NCBI GenBank assembly: GCA_016180815.1
Contig: JACPAN010000006.1
Span: 62,001 to 126,000 of the forward strand
Origin: Elusimicrobiota bacterium
GTDB taxonomy: Bacteria > Elusimicrobiota > Elusimicrobia > JACQPE01
Length of the DNA stretch: 64,000 nucleotides
Direction: 5' to 3'
Shown here: positions 41,736 through 51,389 of the stretch, piece after piece
How positions within the stretch are numbered: the stretch's first letter is position 1
Layout: the number at the start of each line of letters is the position of its first letter
Program-made: the position numbers and the translations under genes
The notes under the pieces: model-generated
Told to the model about the DNA's origin: nothing
Databases searched by the model: none
What the model saw: the letters and a program-made list of their open reading frames with translations, nothing else

Positions 41736-41754
41736 ATTGAAATAGAATTTCAAT
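41736..41754. promoter_or_regulatory. Fur-family operator at the regulator's own start
   Basis: ATTGAAAT-AGA-ATTTCAAT is a perfect 8+8 palindrome with a 3-base centre. It overlaps a possible -10 (TATATT, 41733-41738) and the first two bases of the regulator's ATG. An identical palindrome lies in front of apbE. The placement implies autorepression. Confidence 0.8.
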
Positions 41755-42286
41755 GAAGGAAACAGCCGAACTCGTCTATTTTCCCACCTGGACCGCGGGC
41801 CGTAAAGGCTACGCCGAACGCATCCGTCAGCTTTTTGAAGAATATTTAAACGAGAAGGGTTTAAAGCAAACCACGCAGCGCCAGGCGATTTTGGATTATT
41901 TGCTGCAAGCCAGCCGGCATTTAAGCCAAGAGGATATTTACCGGGCGTTGAAATCACGGGGAATCGGCCGGGTCACGGTGTTTCGGGCTTTGAAAACGCT
42001 CGAAGACTGCGGGCTCGTTGCCCGGGTCAGCGGCCCCGGCGCCATGGCCCGCTACGAGGTCAAGAAAGAGCGCCCGCATCATGATCATTTGATCTGCGTC
42101 GACTGCGGCGCGATTTTGGAAGTCCGCTGGCCCGAGGTCGAGCGCCTGCAGGATAGAACCTGCCGCGATGTTGAGTTTACCCCGCTCTGGCACCGGCACG
42201 AGATTTTCGGCCGCTGTAAAAACTGCGGCCAAGCGCCGGGGCCCGTCACCGGCCGGTCCCACCCGGCGAATACCCGGAAAAAATAA
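41753..42286 (+). CDS. Fur-family transcriptional regulator
   Basis: This 177-aa protein has a winged-helix domain (LKQTTQRQAILDYLL, HLSQEDIYRALKSRGIGRVTVFRALKTLEDCGLV) and the C-terminal dimerisation/metal domain (HHDHLICVDCGAILEV, then HRHEIFGRCKNCG). The two CxxC pairs form the structural zinc site, and the HHDH and HRHE segments hold sensing-site ligands. A roughly 25-residue N-terminal extension precedes the usual Fur start. The start codon overlaps a perfect palindrome that recurs before the next operon, so it probably represses itself and the apbE operon. Whether it senses Fe, Zn, Mn, peroxide or haem cannot be told from sequence alone. Confidence 0.92.
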   Translation: MKETAELVYFPTWTAGRKGYAERIRQLFEEYLNEKGLKQTTQRQAILDYLLQASRHLSQEDIYRALKSRGIGRVTVFRALKTLEDCGLVARVSGPGAMARYEVKKERPHHDHLICVDCGAILEVRWPEVERLQDRTCRDVEFTPLWHRHEIFGRCKNCGQAPGPVTGRSHPANTRKK

Positions 42287-42319: not shown

Positions 42320-42348
42320 TTGCAATTGAAATTAAATTTCAATATGAT
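42320..42348 (+). promoter_or_regulatory. apbE operon promoter enclosing the Fur-family operator
   Basis: TTGCAA (42320-42325), a 17-base spacer and TATGAT (42343-42348) surround ATTGAAAT-TAA-ATTTCAAT (42325-42343), the same palindrome as at the regulator gene. A protein bound there would cover both promoter elements. The -10 ends 9 bases before ATG 42358 (6 before GTG 42355), so the message may be leaderless. Confidence 0.75.
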
Positions 42349-42357
42349 CCCATTGTG

Positions 42358-43407
42358 ATGAATCGGCCGTTATTGTTATTCGTTGCGGCCTGGGTCGCTT
42401 TGACCGGGGCGGCCGAAGCCGCCCAAACGCGCCGGACCCGCTACCTGATGGGCACGCTGTGCGAAATATCCGCGCATGGGCCCCAGGATAAAGCGTTGGA
42501 GGCGGCCGTCGGACGCGCCTTTGATGAGATCGCCAGGCTCGAGGGCATGATGAGCAATTGGCGCTCGAGCAGCGAGGTCAATCGTTTGAACCGGCAGGGT
42601 CGCCGTCCCTTGGTTTTAAGCCCGGAGCTTTTCGACGTGCTGTCAACCGGACAGAACATCGCGCGGGAGAGCGGCGGGGCTTTTGACATGACGGTCGGAC
42701 CGTTGATCGAGCTATGGGATTTGCGCGGCAGCGGGCGCGTGCCTTCGTCCGGTGAAATTGCTCGGACGCGCCGAAGGGTTGGTTTTAAGCATTTGCGTCT
42801 TGATCCTCGAAGCCGCAGCGCAACCTTTATTAGAGAAGGCATGGCCGTTGATTTGGGCGGAATCGCCAAGGGCTATGCGTTGGATCAAGCCGCGCAAATT
42901 TTGATGAACAACGGCGCGCGGGGCGCCATGCTTAATTTCGGCGGGCAGATTTTGGTGGCCGGGGAACCATTCGAGGGTCGCCGTTGGACAATTGAAATCG
43001 CCCACCCCGCGCGCGCCGGCGTTCCCCATCGTTTGGAGCTGGTCAAGGGTTCGGCGTCCACGTCGTCTCAGAGGGAACGCTTTATTGAATCCGAAGGGAA
43101 GGCGATCGGCCATGTGCTTGACCCTGGCAACGGCCGCCCGGCGTCTTTTCAAGGTTCGGTCACGGTGATCGCGCCCACGGCCGTGGAAGCGGATGCGTTG
43201 TCCACGGCCCTTTTGGTTATGGACCAGAAAAAAGGATTGGCTTTTATCGAACGTCAAGAGCAGGCCGCCGCTCTTTATTATGTGCCCGGGATTGATTCAA
43301 GCGAGCCCTGGCAAGTGAAGGCATCCAAGCGATTGAGTCTTTATCAGATTTCGGATAAGCAACCGGCATCGTCGGGGGTTGATGCCCGGGCCGCTGGAAA
43401 TCAATAG
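42358..43407 (+). CDS. apbE: exported FAD:protein FMN transferase (ApbE)
   Basis: This 349-aa protein has a signal peptide (residues 1-22). It carries the ApbE signatures RYLMGTLCEI, a SGGAFDMTVGPL motif, VDLGGIAKGYALDQA, GHVLDPGNGRP and the Mg-binding EADALSTALLVM. It transfers FMN from FAD to a Thr in exported proteins and so builds covalent flavin redox centres outside the cytoplasm. The probable substrate is the FMN-binding protein encoded two genes downstream. ATG 42358 is preferred over the adjoining GTG 42355. It is the first gene of an operon controlled by the Fur-family palindrome. Confidence 0.95.
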   Translation: MNRPLLLFVAAWVALTGAAEAAQTRRTRYLMGTLCEISAHGPQDKALEAAVGRAFDEIARLEGMMSNWRSSSEVNRLNRQGRRPLVLSPELFDVLSTGQNIARESGGAFDMTVGPLIELWDLRGSGRVPSSGEIARTRRRVGFKHLRLDPRSRSATFIREGMAVDLGGIAKGYALDQAAQILMNNGARGAMLNFGGQILVAGEPFEGRRWTIEIAHPARAGVPHRLELVKGSASTSSQRERFIESEGKAIGHVLDPGNGRPASFQGSVTVIAPTAVEADALSTALLVMDQKKGLAFIERQEQAAALYYVPGIDSSEPWQVKASKRLSLYQISDKQPASSGVDARAAGNQ

Positions 43408-43417
43408 GAGGAAAAAA

Positions 43418-44734
43418 ATGAAATACGCATTGTTGATCGCCATGTTGTGCGGGGCTCAGGCTTCGGCTCAACAAACAACCCCTGTGGAAGAACTTGAGCG
43501 AAGAATCGACATCTTAAGCCGTGAAGTGGAGAAACTCAAATTAGGCGACACGGCCGCCGAACCCGCCTATCAATCGGCTTACGGCTTTGCCCCGGCCGCG
43601 GCCAAGGTGTACCACATCAATCGGGGCGTTTCCATCGGCGGGTACGGAGAAATGACGGTTCAGGACTTCAAAGGCACAAAGGACAACGGGGCCGCTTCGG
43701 GCAAAAAACGCGAAGCGGATTTTCTTCGCGCCATTGTGTACACAGGATTCAAATTCACCGACCGCATCCTGTTTAATTCCGAAATTGAATTTGAACATGC
43801 GACAACCGGAGGCGGAGCCGGCGCCAGAGGCGAAGCCAGCCTTGAATTCGCCTACCTTGATTTTTTCTTGGCCAAACCGCTGGCTGTGCGGGCCGGTCTT
43901 TTGCTGGTGCCCGTGGGATTCGTCAATGAGCTGCATGAACCCACGATTTTTCACGGCTCAAGGCGTCCCAACGTGGAATCGAATATTATCCCCACCACAT
44001 GGCGGGAAAATGGGGCCGGCCTTTTCGGCGAGTTGGGGCCGTTGAGTTATCGGACTTATGTGATGACGGGCTTGCAGGCCGTTAAAGACGCTGATTTGGC
44101 CGCCGGCGTTAAAGGGCCCGTCCAAGGATTCAGCGCCTCAAGCGTTTTGAGGAACGCAAGGTCCAAGGGCGCCAAAAGTCAGGCGGAGGATTTGGCTTGG
44201 ATCGGGCGTCTCGATTACAAAGGGATACCCGGAATTCTTTTGGGCGGCTCCTTTTATAGCGGCCAGGCCGGGCAAAATAATACCAATGCCGCGGGTGAGG
44301 ATATCGACGCTCCCGTAACCCTTTCCGAAATGCATGGATCGGCGGAATACCGCGGCGTGGAGATCAAAGCCCTCTATGCTCAAGGAAGCATCGGAGATGC
44401 GGCCGATATCAATACTAAAAACGGCTTGGCAGGCAATGCCTCGGTGGGCGAACGTTTCTACGGCGGTTATGCGCAGGCGGCTTATGATGTTTTGTCCTTG
44501 CTGGGCTCAAAACAATACCTGGCTCCGTTCATCCGTTACGAAAAATACGATACACAACAAAGGGTGCCCGGCGGATTTTCCCGGAATCCGGCCAATAAAC
44601 GAACGGAATACACTTACGGGTTGACGTACAAGCCTCATCCCAACACGGTGATTAAGGCTGATTGGCAGAACATGAAAGATGACGCTGATACGGGGGTGGA
44701 CCAATTCAATTTAGCCGTTGGTTATCTCTTTTAA
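43418..44734 (+). CDS. outer-membrane porin (phosphate-selective porin O/P-like)
   Basis: This 438-aa protein starts at ATG 43418, behind AGGAGG. It has a signal peptide ending ASAQQ and a short coiled-coil stretch (VEELERRIDILSREVEKL) of the kind that trimeric porins use to contact peptidoglycan. A long beta barrel of alternating residues follows and ends in AVGYLF, with the terminal Phe of outer-membrane proteins. The region GGYGEMTVQDF and the Gly/Tyr pattern resemble the O/P porin group. In this operon it may admit a metal complex or small ligand to the periplasm. Confidence 0.85.
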   Translation: MKYALLIAMLCGAQASAQQTTPVEELERRIDILSREVEKLKLGDTAAEPAYQSAYGFAPAAAKVYHINRGVSIGGYGEMTVQDFKGTKDNGAASGKKREADFLRAIVYTGFKFTDRILFNSEIEFEHATTGGGAGARGEASLEFAYLDFFLAKPLAVRAGLLLVPVGFVNELHEPTIFHGSRRPNVESNIIPTTWRENGAGLFGELGPLSYRTYVMTGLQAVKDADLAAGVKGPVQGFSASSVLRNARSKGAKSQAEDLAWIGRLDYKGIPGILLGGSFYSGQAGQNNTNAAGEDIDAPVTLSEMHGSAEYRGVEIKALYAQGSIGDAADINTKNGLAGNASVGERFYGGYAQAAYDVLSLLGSKQYLAPFIRYEKYDTQQRVPGGFSRNPANKRTEYTYGLTYKPHPNTVIKADWQNMKDDADTGVDQFNLAVGYLF

Positions 44735-44742
44735 CGATTCTC

Positions 44743-45246
44743 TTGACCCTGGCCTGGGCACAAACCCCCGCCCAGGCCAGGGTCCTGCTCACCCAGGATC
44801 AGGCGCTGGCGATCGCTTTTCCGGGCGCGCGCGTCGAACGCCGGACGGTTTTTTTGACCAAAGAGCAGATGGCCCGGATTGAAAAAAAAGCCAAAGCCAA
44901 AGTCGCTGATGAGATGTTCGCCTACTATGTTGCCCGCAGCACGGACGGCATTTTAGGCTATGCTTTTTTTGAAAGCCATATCGTGCGCACCATGCCGGAA
45001 ACGTTTATGGTTGCTTTAAATCCGGGAGGCGATATCCGCGTTGTCGAACTATTGGCTTTCTATGAGCCCGAGGATTACAAGCCTCATCCCAAATGGCTGA
45101 GAACATTCAAGGGCCGCGAGTTAAGCGATCAGCTTTGGGTCAAGCGAGGCCTGCGCAACATAGCCGGCGCCACGCTCACGGCCCAGGCCATTGCCGAAGG
45201 TGTGCGCCGCATTTTGGCCGTCTATGAGGTCGCCGTCAAACAATGA
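44743..45246 (+). CDS. exported FMN-binding domain protein (probable ApbE substrate)
   Basis: The frame gives 167 aa from TTG 44743, but that start removes most of a signal peptide. The frame stays open upstream to 44689 and would encode WLSLLTILLTLAWA, a proper export signal, if translation began near ATT 44704 (180 aa). The domain has YVARSTDGILGYAFFES and NIAGATLTAQAI. The GAT is the flavin-attachment motif of NqrC/RnfG-type FMN-binding domains, with T144 (TTG numbering) the acceptor. The usual Asp six residues earlier is Arg here. It should carry covalent FMN in the periplasm and accept electrons from the next protein. Confidence 0.8.
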   Translation: MTLAWAQTPAQARVLLTQDQALAIAFPGARVERRTVFLTKEQMARIEKKAKAKVADEMFAYYVARSTDGILGYAFFESHIVRTMPETFMVALNPGGDIRVVELLAFYEPEDYKPHPKWLRTFKGRELSDQLWVKRGLRNIAGATLTAQAIAEGVRRILAVYEVAVKQ

Positions 45247-45740
45247 AGTACATGCAAAACGGGGGATTCCAGCACAATCCCCATATGCGCCTGACCCTGC
45301 TCCTGACCTGCCTGCTTCTGGCGGGGTTATGGGTGACGAACGGGCTTCTTTATTTTTCCAGGATGGGGCTGACGCCTCAGTCGGTGGTAAATTATTACCT
45401 GGGTTCGGAGGCGAATTTCACCTTGCCCCGGACGTACCAGTCCATGCTCGAAGTGACGCATATGCATTTGCCCATGATGGCTTTGGTTATTTTACTGGTC
45501 ACTCATTTGTTGATTTTCGCTCCGTTCAGCGATCGGGCGAAGAAAGTGTTCATTAGCGGAACATTCCTGGCCGCTTTTTTGGGCGAAGCATCAGGATGGC
45601 TGGTACGCTTCGTTAATCCGGTTTTTGCCTGGCTGAAAATCGTTTCGTTCGTAACCCTGGAGTGTTTGTTTGGATTTTTGCTGGCAGCGTTGATTTTATT
45701 TTTGATGAAAAGCTCCGTCCGTCGCCATCCCCGAACATGA
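45243..45740 (+). CDS. four-helix membrane protein with conserved-looking His residues
   Basis: This 165-aa protein has four membrane helices (residues about 16-38, 74-92, 102-122 and 130-156). H73 and H75 (EVTHMHLPM) and H88 (LLVTHLL) sit in or near helix 2 and could ligate haem. That resembles small cytochrome b-like partners of flavinylated proteins (for example DUF4405-type), but no family can be named with certainty. The start overlaps the FMN-binding gene by 4 bases (ATGA). A reasonable role is to pass electrons from quinol to the periplasmic flavoprotein. Confidence 0.75.
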   Translation: MKYMQNGGFQHNPHMRLTLLLTCLLLAGLWVTNGLLYFSRMGLTPQSVVNYYLGSEANFTLPRTYQSMLEVTHMHLPMMALVILLVTHLLIFAPFSDRAKKVFISGTFLAAFLGEASGWLVRFVNPVFAWLKIVSFVTLECLFGFLLAALILFLMKSSVRRHPRT

Positions 45741-45768
45741 TCGAATCAAAAATTCTAAAGTACGCATC

Positions 45769-46719
45769 ATGCTTCGTCGGTTGAGCCTGGTAGCACTCTT
45801 GGCATCGGCGGCCCCGGCTGTTTGGGCTCAGGCCAAGGCGCCCATCGCCGTTCTTTTGCTGGCCCACGGCGGTTCGGCCAAATGGGACGCCCAAATCACC
45901 CAGGTTAAAAAAGCCGTGGAGAAGGCGGGCTATCCGGTTGAGATCGCGCTCGGCATGGCGGATCCCGCCAATATCGAAAAGGCCCTGGCAAAGCTTTCGG
46001 CCAAACGGCCTTCCAAAGTCGTGTGCGTGCCGATTTTGATCAGCTCCAACTCGGAGTTGTACGAGCAATTCGCTTATGTTCTCGGCTTGCGCGAACAACC
46101 ATCGGCCGATTTTTTAGAAGGCATGCGCCAAGCCGCCAAGTTGGGCCAAGGCGAGGAGCGTTCAGCCGGCTTCGGCAAAAAGGGCCGGGACAAGGGCCAT
46201 GATCATCGCCACCACACAAGCCTCGACGCCAGGCAGGTGAAGACCAAACTTGATCTTAAATTAGCCTCGGCTTTGGATGACCATCCCTACGTGGCGCAGA
46301 TTTTGTTGGCCCGCGCGCGCGCAGTTTCCAAAAATCCGGCGAAAGAGATCGTCGCCATCGTGTCTCATGGGCCTTATACGGACGCTATGGAAGGCCCATG
46401 GATGGAAACCGCGGATAAAGCGGCCAGGCAATTGGCCCAGTTGGGCGGTTTCGCCGAAGCCAAGGCTTTTAATATGAGGGATGACGCGCCCATCCCTGTC
46501 CGGCAAGCCAAGGCGAAAGAATTGCGGGCGTATTGTCAGCAGCGCTCCAAAGAGGGCAAACAAATCATTATCGTGCCTCATCTGGTCTCCATGAACGGGA
46601 TTGAGAAGCATATCACCAAAGCTTTGGACGGACTCTTTTATAAAATAAGCCGGGAAGCCCTTCTGCCTCACCCGCTGGTGGAGCAATGGGTTCTGGCCCA
46701 GATTAAAAGTCATGAGTGA
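45769..46719 (+). CDS. exported CbiX/sirohydrochlorin chelatase-like protein
   Basis: This 316-aa protein has a signal peptide (residues 1-20, ending VWAQA). It is followed by a duplicated chelatase fold: VLLLAHGGSAKWDAQI in the first half and IVAIVSHGPYTDAMEGPW in the second, each with the active-site His of CbiX/CbiK enzymes. A linker (residues about 137-152) holds a His-rich cluster, DKGHDHRHHT. CbiX proteins normally work in the cytoplasm, inserting Co, Ni or Fe into tetrapyrroles. An exported form in a Fur-controlled operon points to periplasmic metal or tetrapyrrole handling, as known for periplasmic CbiK in Desulfovibrio. Confidence 0.85.
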   Translation: MLRRLSLVALLASAAPAVWAQAKAPIAVLLLAHGGSAKWDAQITQVKKAVEKAGYPVEIALGMADPANIEKALAKLSAKRPSKVVCVPILISSNSELYEQFAYVLGLREQPSADFLEGMRQAAKLGQGEERSAGFGKKGRDKGHDHRHHTSLDARQVKTKLDLKLASALDDHPYVAQILLARARAVSKNPAKEIVAIVSHGPYTDAMEGPWMETADKAARQLAQLGGFAEAKAFNMRDDAPIPVRQAKAKELRAYCQQRSKEGKQIIIVPHLVSMNGIEKHITKALDGLFYKISREALLPHPLVEQWVLAQIKSHE

Positions 46720-47458
46720 AATAACGATGACCGCCGCCCAGGAAATTCTTGAAGAAAATGTTTTGGATAAGGGTTTTATCCGGCTGATCGAATTCATGGG
46801 CGGCGATCCCGCCGTTGTTTTGGGCGCGCGCGTGTCTTATGCCCAGGGGTTGAAGGGCGACGAAAAAGATAAAAAATTAGTTTTTTATTTGATGCAGCAC
46901 AGCCACATGACCCCTTTCGAGCAGGCGGTGTTGAAGTTTCATGTGAAATGCCCTATTTTTGTCATGCGGCAATGGATCCGCCATCGGATCGGCTCTTTTA
47001 ACGAGCATAGCGCGCGTTATTCCGAAATGGCCGATGAATTTTATATCCCGGCCGAGTTCCGCAAACAAGACGTGAAAAACAAGCAAGGTTCCCTGGCGGC
47101 CGGGGCGGAAATTGACCAGAAGGAAGCTCTAGCGGAATATACCCGGACCATCGGGCAAACATATGCGACTTATCAGAGCCTGATTGCGGCGGGAGCCGCC
47201 AGGGAAATGGCCAGGATGGTTTTACCCACCGCTTTGTATACGCAGTTTTATTGGACCGTCAACGCACGCAGCCTGATGAATTTCATCCTGCTTCGCGCCG
47301 AAGGGCACGCCCAGTGGGAAATCCAGCAATATGCGCTGGCCCTGGCTAAGTTTTTTAAAATGAGAATGCCCTGGACATGGGAAGCCTTCCTGCGTTTTAC
47401 CTGGAAGGGAGGCAACCCGGTCCTGGATCAGGAGAAGGCGCAATTTAATGGAAGTTAA
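46712..47458 (+). CDS. thyX: flavin-dependent thymidylate synthase
   Basis: This 248-aa protein has the ThyX motif RHRIGSFNEHSARY (residues about 90-103) and ARMVLPTALYTQFYWT near the folate/dUMP site. It makes dTMP from dUMP with methylene-tetrahydrofolate and FADH2. Its start overlaps the chelatase gene by 8 bases (ATG 46727 is a second possible start). Its end overlaps the next gene by 11 bases, so it shares the operon. Confidence 0.95.
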   Translation: MSEITMTAAQEILEENVLDKGFIRLIEFMGGDPAVVLGARVSYAQGLKGDEKDKKLVFYLMQHSHMTPFEQAVLKFHVKCPIFVMRQWIRHRIGSFNEHSARYSEMADEFYIPAEFRKQDVKNKQGSLAAGAEIDQKEALAEYTRTIGQTYATYQSLIAAGAAREMARMVLPTALYTQFYWTVNARSLMNFILLRAEGHAQWEIQQYALALAKFFKMRMPWTWEAFLRFTWKGGNPVLDQEKAQFNGS

Positions 47459-48176
47459 AACATCCGCAGAAGAGAAAACCGAGGCTAAGCAGCCGCTCGT
47501 GCGCCAGTATGTGCGTTTTGTCTGCTACAAACTGGATTTGGCTTTCCGCAAACTCGATCCCAATGTCCGGCATCAGGCCAAAGAGGAAGTTTTTTCCGCG
47601 CTCGATTTATTCCGCGACCGGATGATGCTGTTTACCTATAACCTGACCGCGACCAGGGCGGACGCGGATTTCATGTTTTGGCAAATCGCCGAAGATTTGG
47701 AAGTGTTCGAGGAGTTCTCTTCGCGCCTGACGCGCAGCGGCTTGGGGCTCTATATGACGCGCACCCATTCTTTTTTATCCATGACCAAACATTCGCTATA
47801 TGTGGATAAAATCAATCCGGAGCATCCCCAGGGCCGCTCCCGCATTCAGCCGGGGCAGCATCGTTTTCTTTTCGTGTATCCGTTCGTCAAGACGAAAGCC
47901 TGGTATCAATTGCCCATGGCTGAGCGGCAAAAAATGATGGATGAGCATATCGTCATCGGCAATAAATATCCCTCGGTCAAGTTGAACACGACGTATTCCT
48001 TCGGTTTGGACGATCAAGAGTTCGTGGTGGCCTTTGAATCGGACAGTCCTCAGGATTTCTTGGACCTGGTTCAGGAGCTAAGGGGATCGAAGGCCAGCCA
48101 ATATACCCTGCGCGACACGCCCACCATCACCGCCATTGCCAGGGATCCCAAATGGATCCTCGACGCGCTCGGTTAA
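47448..48176 (+). CDS. chlorite dismutase-family haem protein (HemQ-like)
   Basis: This 242-aa protein has the ferredoxin-like double fold of the chlorite dismutase family: an RQYVRFVCYKLDLAFRKL start, the FVYPFVKTKAWYQL segment, HIVIGNKYPSVKLNTTYSFG and FVVAFESDSPQDFLDLV. The length and the absence of a signal peptide fit the HemQ/ChdC group, which converts coprohaem to haem b. True chlorite dismutase is usually exported. A haem role also fits the neighbouring chelatase and Fur-type control. The distal Arg of chlorite dismutase could not be placed with confidence. Confidence 0.82.
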   Translation: MEVKTSAEEKTEAKQPLVRQYVRFVCYKLDLAFRKLDPNVRHQAKEEVFSALDLFRDRMMLFTYNLTATRADADFMFWQIAEDLEVFEEFSSRLTRSGLGLYMTRTHSFLSMTKHSLYVDKINPEHPQGRSRIQPGQHRFLFVYPFVKTKAWYQLPMAERQKMMDEHIVIGNKYPSVKLNTTYSFGLDDQEFVVAFESDSPQDFLDLVQELRGSKASQYTLRDTPTITAIARDPKWILDALG

Positions 48177-50658: not shown

Positions 50659-51087
50659 TTAGGCGGGGCGGTTTTTATGCAAAATTTCGCTTAAAGATGC
50701 GGCGAATTCTGCGGGTGATACGACGGCTGTTTTTTCTGTTTGGCGCGGAAAATGCCGTTTGTTGCCGGTCACCAAATAATCGGCCATGGCCGCCGATGCG
50801 CAGTCCAGAAATTTTTGATCCAGAGGATCAAGCGCCGTATGGGACGAAGCTTTGGCAGGATTCACCTTGACGCCATGGCGGGCGATATCTGAGATCAGCC
50901 GGTCCACCGCTGTTGCGGAAAAATTAAACTTTCCTCTTGAGAGAACATCGCGATATTCTTCCATAATGGCATCGCTGAAGCAGATCGTGTAATAGCGGTT
51001 TATTCCCAAAGCCAAGACATAGGCAGGCAAACTTTGAGCGTACAGCGTTGCGGATACGATGATATTCGTATCTAATACCGCTTTCAC
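50659..51087 (-). CDS. PIN-domain toxin (COG1569-like)
   Basis: This 142-aa PIN domain has the acidic residues of the ribonuclease site: D6 in VLDTNIIVSA, the Glu of EEYRDVL, and FLDCASAAMADYLVTGNKRHF near residue 95. It likely cleaves RNA when freed from its antitoxin. The start overlaps the antitoxin stop by 4 bases (ATGA). Confidence 0.9.
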   Translation of the reverse strand: MKAVLDTNIIVSATLYAQSLPAYVLALGINRYYTICFSDAIMEEYRDVLSRGKFNFSATAVDRLISDIARHGVKVNPAKASSHTALDPLDQKFLDCASAAMADYLVTGNKRHFPRQTEKTAVVSPAEFAASLSEILHKNRPA

Positions 51088-51389
51088 GCGACTCGCGATT
51101 TTTTAATGCGGCGAATTTCCGTTTTGACCGAGGGGAGGTTCAACAAATCCAACCCCTTGCGTTTGGCTTCGGTTTGCAAGGCCAGCAGGCTTTTGGGCCA
51201 AACGACGAAATTTTCAAGAAAGTCTTGCATGCCCAAGATGACAGCCTGGGGTTCTCCTCTGCGGTCCACGATGAAGCGGGTTTTGCCTTCCTTCGTTTTT
51301 TTCAAAATTTGCCCGAATTGGGTGCGGGCAAGGAAAGCAGGCACGTGTTTGGTTTCACCTTCAAATGGCGAGCGTCTTGCTTCATTCAT
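51084..51389 (-). CDS. Phd/YefM-like antitoxin
   Basis: This 101-aa protein has a Phd-like N-terminal DNA-binding fold (FLARTQFGQILKKTKEGKTRFIVDRRGEPQAVILG) followed by a longer tail (residues 55-101) that should wrap around the PIN toxin. The gene is first in the operon, directly behind a good promoter. A perfect 12-bp palindrome covers its start codon, as expected for autoregulation. Confidence 0.88.
   Translation of the reverse strand: MNEARRSPFEGETKHVPAFLARTQFGQILKKTKEGKTRFIVDRRGEPQAVILGMQDFLENFVVWPKSLLALQTEAKRKGLDLLNLPSVKTEIRRIKKSRVA

Follow-up and report, generated by a model that had tools for sequence, protein, structure and literature searches.

A porin, flavoprotein and four-helix membrane protein module under Fur-type operators in an Elusimicrobiota genome, probably a ferric reductase

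The window, a stretch of 64,000 nucleotides from an Elusimicrobiota bacterium (assembly GCA_016180815.1, contig JACPAN010000006.1, positions 62,001 to 126,000 of the forward strand), is part of a 2.85 Mb genome that is 99.5% complete. It carries, all on the plus strand, the genes fur, apbE, porin, flavin mononucleotide (FMN)-binding, four-helix, chelatase-like, thyX and hemQ in this computed order, separated by short gaps or overlaps (Table 1). The module studied here consists of the porin, the FMN-binding protein and the four-helix membrane protein, usually together with ApbE. The five genes from apbE to the chelatase gene are adjacent, each at the place given in an earlier note on this DNA. 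The FMN-binding and four-helix genes are joined by an ATGA overlap, which suggests translational coupling. The porin gene probably begins at an ATG preceded by AGGAGG, while the only in-frame start of the FMN-binding gene is a TTG, and the open frame upstream of this TTG encodes a good signal peptide. For the hemQ gene, the top NCBIfam model was HemQ_actino, with 127 bits against its cut-off of 235.

Table 1. Features from the fur operator to hemQ, in positions of the window.
Feature	Position	Strand	Remark
Fur-type operator TTGAAAT-AGA-ATTTCAA	41737..41753	.	perfect 7-3-7 palindrome, overlaps fur start codon
fur, FUR-family metalloregulator	41753..42286	+	PF01475 4e-28
promoter-like hexamers TTGCAA / TATGAT, spacer 17, apbE operon	42320..42348	+	consensus match only
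Fur-type operator TTGAAAT-TAA-ATTTCAA	42326..42342	.	fills promoter spacer before apbE
apbE, exported FAD:protein FMN transferase	42355..43407	+	PF02424 2e-76; alternative ATG 42358
outer-membrane porin, Porin_O_P-like	43418..44734	+	PF07396 in 12/23 family members
FMN-binding protein, RnfG-like, AGATLT flavinylation motif	44743..45246	+	start codon uncertain
four-helix membrane protein, HxH(x12)H in helix 2	45243..45740	+	family alignment, predicted model
exported protein, predicted two-domain class II chelatase fold, His-rich linker	45769..46719	+	judged neighbour, not core
thyX	46712..47458	+	conserved partner of chelatase gene
hemQ / chlorite dismutase family	47448..48176	+	PF06778 3e-56

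Iron control of the module was well supported by a single Fur gene and a small operator set. The perfect 17-base palindrome TTGAAAT-NNN-ATTTCAA occurred at three sites in the whole genome, located before fur, before apbE and before a gene whose product combines cytochrome c and FTR1 iron-permease domains, with a ferritin-like gene beyond it. By our own arithmetic with equal base frequencies, about 0.01 perfect matches were expected, and the genome search detected only one FUR-family gene. The operator before apbE fills the 17 bases between the hexamers TTGCAA and TATGAT; since such hexamer pairs were no rarer in shuffled sequence (four in the region against 5.1 expected), this placement is taken as a position and not as a proof.

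The footprint of the operator extended to related genomes. Compared with shuffled sequence, the fixed motif passed the p≤0.05 threshold in 23 of the 31 regions upstream of Elusimicrobiota loci with strong matches to the four-helix family, in 21 of 29 after removal of the window's own two, and in 17 of the 20 testable loci, which are not independent because several share one genus. The same threshold was reached by 1 of 19 upstream regions of other phyla and by neither of the two regions of distant homologues. Perfect operators numbered three, two and two in three of eight related genomes and zero in the other five; the reversed-pattern control gave no perfect site in the same eight. Both perfect sites of genome G007 and two of the three of genome G012 lay in the module operon, with both operon positions occupied in each of these two genomes, and the operator was also found before fur or apbE in other relatives. 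These results, in the genome itself and in its relatives, bore out the earlier note's claim of Fur-type control, and the window operon is very likely an iron-starvation operon, as judged from its sequence. The metal handled by the module is most likely iron.

Further sites were seen outside the module. The third perfect site of G012 (L189:3088-5050) is located ahead of an exported chelatase paralogue followed by a ZIP-family transporter, a set which is a candidate second metal-uptake operon. In genome G002, one perfect site precedes fur near a contig end, with a near-perfect box behind that fur, and a perfect operator stands at the start of a 448-residue protein without Pfam match (L191:1864-3210), possibly a further member of the regulon. 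Two weaker sites of the window's genome were set aside: the one-mismatch site G000:C15:25062, which falls inside an obg-like gene, probably by chance, and the two-mismatch site G000:C7:100089, in front of which no iron gene was seen by eye.

The porin–FMN-binding–four-helix core, usually together with apbE, was also conserved outside the window's own family, namely in further families of Elusimicrobiota, in Acidobacteria and in KSB1-type genomes. A search of 196 genomes of the class detected the four-helix protein in 28, with 26 strong matches and two distant ones. All 26 strong loci have the FMN-binding gene next to the four-helix gene; the porin lies alongside at 23 of them, apbE at 22, fur at 10 and the chelatase at 2. 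Two of the three loci without porin, and all four without apbE, were cut by contig ends. The phylum to which the Acidobacteria locus belongs gave four-helix matches in 12 of 396 genomes, and the FMN-binding gene and the porin were both present in 6 of the 10 fetched loci (one porin match being partial); locus L033 has the order fur–apbE–porin–FMN-binding–four-helix. For the KSB1 locus, the corresponding figure in its phylum was 18 of 82 genomes, and of the 16 loci fetched there, 15 carried the FMN-binding gene and 12 the porin. The porin-flavin-four-helix unit put forward in the earlier note was thus found across phyla, while the chelatase that the note had included was not part of the conserved neighbourhood. 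The distant four-helix homologues at L061:9170-12682 and L062:9520-13042 stand in other genomic surroundings, with apbE and an FMN-binding gene beside them; they show no porin match and lack the third His. A supposed Pseudomonadales homologue (L035) was rejected, its match falling in a trigger-factor-like gene.

Iron genes of different kinds adjoin this core. By direct check, 10 of 57 loci (3 Elusimicrobiota and 7 KSB1-type) have FeoB next to the module, and 5 of 57, all KSB1, have a DtxR-type iron regulator there; FTR1-like genes were located near the module in L033 and L166. Neighbour proteins were also counted by Pfam domain, the families not being picked for iron. FeoB domains ranked first among 93 proteins of the KSB1 set (7), with the DtxR domain in 5 and the hemA, hemC, hemD and hemE domains in 3 to 5 each; in the Elusimicrobiota/Acidobacteria set, DsbA-like domains ranked first (6 of 120), and FeoB, FUR and others were found in 3. 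The scans used 93 of 106 and 120 of 155 proteins, respectively, leaving out long, short and evidently antisense proteins and all of L036; the near-duplicate loci of one genus, the window's own locus and L061/L062 had been omitted earlier. Two unrelated iron regulators (FUR and DtxR) and two iron importers (FeoB and FTR1) therefore adjoin the core in different phyla. No TonB-dependent receptor was found in the window's own genome, G012, G007 and G040 (4 of 11 genomes searched). At three KSB1-type loci (L162:1884-5902, L168:11487-15557 and L171:2705-7798), heme-synthesis genes were observed beside the flavin module, read by eye as hemA, hemC, hemD, or hemH and hemL.

The neighbour counts also bear on another function, in which the module would serve the maturation of heme or cytochrome c, as a redox chain of the envelope that holds heme iron or the thiols of apocytochromes in the reduced state; iron control would be understandable there too, because heme needs iron. 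The hemA, hemC, hemD and hemE domains among the commonest KSB1-set neighbours, the DsbA-like domains in the other set, hemQ and thyX downstream in the window, and the position of chelatase relatives next to hemA, ccsA and resB would all fit such a chain. On the other side, FeoB and both families of iron regulators are found next to the module, the last of the three perfect operators lies at FTR1 and not at heme genes, and it is not obvious what a porin would do in cytochrome maturation; we regard a maturation chain as unlikely.

The proteins around the flavin were recognized largely through their families. The window porin itself gave no match in the Pfam scan; 12 of 23 members of its family, the window protein not among them, matched Porin_O_P (PF07396) with a best value of 1.3e-7, one porin row (L031) having been removed by the filter for stops or undetermined bases. 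The window FMN-binding protein scored 17.3 bits with FMN_bind, under the Pfam cut-off of 22 bits, while 16 of 16 family members matched FMN_bind at E≤0.1 (best 2e-5) and the family profile reached RnfG in the PDB at 1.6e-5. Its AGATLT motif fits the acceptor motif of the GA[S/T]-x-[S/T] type, and the last residue, the acceptor, was read by eye as T in 27 and S in 4 of 31 FMN-binding sequences. These features suggest that FMN is attached to this protein by ApbE.

The four-helix membrane protein was modelled by AlphaFold as four long helices with a mean predicted local distance difference test (pLDDT) score of 84, in which H73, H75 and H88 all lie in the helix of residues 65-90 (helix 2). The earlier note's claim that these His residues are conserved held in the family alignment, with H73 and H75 in 31 of 31 sequences and H88 in 29 of 31. 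E70 and E115 are conserved as well, and HxH is also invariant in a 14-member set whose identity to L061 is 16-34%, except for L062 (70%). HxH stands at the outer end of helix 2, and the third His, 13 residues beyond it, defines the main branch of the family. H75 and H88 are 13 residues apart in one helix, a spacing that also occurs between two heme ligands of b-type cytochromes. By the positive-inside rule, H73 and H75 would lie outside and H88 inside. In distant Acidobacteria relatives (L157:4613-5020 and L159:426-821), the HxH helix is immediately preceded by a CxxCH heme c motif, as would suit a redox role of the four-helix domain.

Comparison with known families gave little. Scans of 30 members and of 14 diverse members gave only scattered single weak Pfam or NCBIfam matches, none common to two members, and no match at E≤0.1 to the PepSY-, MsrQ-, NapH- or DUF4405-type Pfam families. 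No relative was found in the PDB with the four-helix family profiles, and the PDB sequence search with L061 was also empty. For the model, the best Foldseek E value was 0.36 and the best VIA Z score was 8.4, to a designed protein; heme A synthase appeared at the noise level (E 1.5), as did the styrene oxide isomerase 8pnu (rank 13, E 1.9, template modelling (TM) score 0.40), to which there was no sequence match. A presumed likeness of helix 2 to this isomerase was not used as evidence. According to the available part of its description, the isomerase binds heme b via H58 at the subunit interface (PMC11374702). Since the fold searches yielded only generic bundles, heme binding is argued from the His conservation and the context, by which the four-helix protein is probably an oligomeric b-type heme protein.

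The exported protein encoded behind the module has a signal peptide, as read by eye, and two domains, with HDHRHH at residues 144-149 between them. It scored 28.3 bits with CbiX in the protein Pfam scan (cut-off 22), while the search of the genome for the CbiX family, by a different method, gave nothing at E 0.001; a PDB sequence search with the protein alone gave no match. Its model (pLDDT 89) matched SirB with Z 21.2 and a root mean square deviation of 2.5 over 227 residues, followed by the coproporphyrin ferrochelatase CpfC (Z 18.6), the periplasmic CbiK of D. vulgaris (17.7) and P. gingivalis FetB (17.7); the predicted model thus has the two-domain class II chelatase fold. Residues were counted in 26 rows, truncated or duplicate ones of 31 being left out. 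One His per domain (H33 and H200) was kept in 25 of 26 rows, together with a Glu in each domain (E96 in 22 and E279 in 23). The active site of CfbA and CbiX has two His in one domain, and in the PDB-profile alignment E96 aligned with a CfbA His, presumably its second active-site His. The active-site His residues on which the earlier chelatase proposal depended were accordingly kept at the first position of each domain, while 22 of 26 rows have Glu in place of the second one in domain 1, so that two His in one domain were not found there. A ferrochelatase-like His/Glu pair in domain 2 was assumed by us, and a regular-expression check on HemH genes returned nothing.

The distribution of this chelatase family decided its place. 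It was found in 61 of 192 genomes, and both cases of adjacency to the module (the window and G012) belong to one family of organisms. The genes thyX and hemQ come after it in the window and in G012, G002, G020, G132 and G001, the chelatase-thyX-hemQ order being seen in L192, L193, L202 and L203. The family was also observed beside hemA and cytochrome c assembly genes at L195:3367-7578 and L198:5276-8134 and beside hemA only at L204:5339-7239, settings which hint at an unrecognised heme-handling step outside the cytosol. From these linkages the family seems to have a place of its own in heme biology. The protein thus seems to meet the flavin operon only in the window's family, as an iron- or heme-linked neighbour and not a part of the reductase, and it was rejected as a core part; the claim that it is a working part of the pathway was not sustained, and a chelatase step there is unlikely. 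The release of iron from heme by the exported protein is a possibility because a heme de-chelatase, HmuS, is known from Bacteroidota, as far as the available text of PMC12583661 goes. A single pathway in which porin, flavin chain and periplasmic chelatase insert reduced metal into a tetrapyrrole, or in reverse take iron from heme, could appeal to the chelatase gene behind the module in the window and G012, to the fold shared with SirB, CpfC, CbiK and FetB and to the G012 operator before a chelatase paralogue and ZIP transporter; it is made improbable by the adjacency in only 2 of 26 strong loci, the independent linkage to thyX-hemQ and to hemA or cytochrome assembly, the His-to-Glu change in domain 1 and the separate ferrochelatase-family gene of the genome. 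Elsewhere in the window, at 50659-51389 on the minus strand, adjacent small genes resembling a PIN-type toxin and antitoxin were seen by eye.

In another improbable reading, the four-helix protein is an iron-binding membrane carrier or sensor that takes Fe(II) from the flavoprotein. Its five conserved His and Glu residues could bind a metal ion, and the lack of any cytochrome family or fold match would allow such a role. The operon would then show no electron source for the flavoprotein, however; a heme c motif stands before the same domain in L157 and L159, and FeoB, a separate transporter, is adjacent in seven KSB1-type loci.

We consider it probable that the module is a Fur-repressed, assimilatory, flavin-based ferric reductase in which the four-helix protein is the electron carrier. 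Under iron limitation, the single Fur would leave the operators before fur, apbE and FTR1, and small Fe(III) complexes would enter the periplasm via the Porin_O_P-like porin. The four-helix protein would take electrons from the membrane, most likely from quinol, through putative heme sites at H73/H75, towards the periplasmic side, and at H88, towards the cytoplasmic side, and pass them to the FMN attached by ApbE at the last Thr of AGATLT. The FMN would reduce Fe(III) to Fe(II), which would be imported by FeoB and/or the cytochrome c-FTR1 permease. The direction of this flow, like the donor, the acceptor and the cargo of the porin, is inferred from the conserved residues and gene context. Several observations weigh against such a reductase. 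The genome's own FeoB gene has no operator within two mismatches upstream in the genome-wide motif scan, and sites with up to two mismatches numbered 25 against 10 in the reversed control, the weaker ones being largely background. The Elusimicrobiota locus L060 is without a porin, and apbE was present in 0 of 16 KSB1-type loci. Heme-synthesis and DsbA-like genes are frequent neighbours and would fit a heme or cytochrome role, and the fold searches with the four-helix protein returned only generic helical bundles.

The general idea of such a reductase is already known from published links between flavinylation and iron and from Fur repression. PMC8238504 distinguishes five classes of membrane electron transfer in flavinylation, reports connections with iron transporters and describes PepSY-like clusters (ApbE, DUF2271 and PepSY) repressed by Fur in Shewanella and Caulobacter. 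These share with the module an ApbE-dependent extracytosolic flavoprotein, a small membrane electron carrier, iron regulation and a proposed assimilatory iron reduction. The module differs from them in its RnfG-like FMN_bind substrate in place of DUF2271, in a membrane protein of four helices without PepSY match, and in having a porin and FeoB/FTR1 where they have a TonB receptor and VIT1 (PMC8238504). In the available part of PMC11334425, DUF4405 is found next to apbE, and FezC, a ferrosome-associated cytochrome with heme sites proposed to form via homodimerisation, is linked to a putative ferrous iron transporter. These are likewise membrane proteins with His as the most conserved residues, whereas 0 of 30 four-helix members match DUF4405 and the conserved His of our family are all in helix 2. 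The P19-FTR1 clusters also tie an FMN-binding protein to an FTR1 permease (main text of PMC8238504); in contrast to them, the operon has no P19 among its Pfam matches, FTR1 shares the operator and not the operon, and the module has a membrane partner and a porin.

Single parts of the operon have closer counterparts. The exported two-domain chelatase fold is shared with D. vulgaris CbiK-P (2xvz), exported according to its PDB title, and with P. gingivalis FetB (9b86), which we take to be exported; the window protein differs in having Glu as the second metal-site residue of domain 1, in the His-rich linker and in the thyX-hemQ linkage. For the porin family the counterpart is the phosphate-selective porins O and P (PF07396), matched by the 12 of 23 members mentioned above; the family differs from them in its linkage to iron genes, and the window protein is below detection. 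The words porin, Elusimicrob and FeoB are absent from the main text of PMC8238504, and porin and FeoB from that of PMC12052999. The novelty asserted in the earlier note was kept in part: no published description of the membrane partner, the porin or the operator set came up in the literature searches, which did not extend to subscription papers and supplements, but iron control had already been described for the PepSY-like clusters (PMC8238504). Flavin-based iron reduction is already published; what sets the module apart as a variant is its unnamed four-helix partner and its dedicated porin.

Of the genomes with ApbE flavinylation machinery, about half were reported in PMC11334425 to be without a previously characterised system, and the conserved, unnamed four-helix partner is a testable candidate for a further membrane electron route. 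We propose tentatively that its family may be an unrecognised class of membrane cytochromes with inter-subunit heme sites, serving as the electron source of a TonB-independent, porin-fed reductive iron uptake that would span at least three phyla and be controlled by two unrelated iron regulators. A dedicated porin combined with periplasmic flavin reduction would be a possible route of iron acquisition where no TonB-dependent receptor was found. With the defined operator and the iron-gene neighbours, the function of the module becomes predictable and testable in several mostly uncultured phyla.

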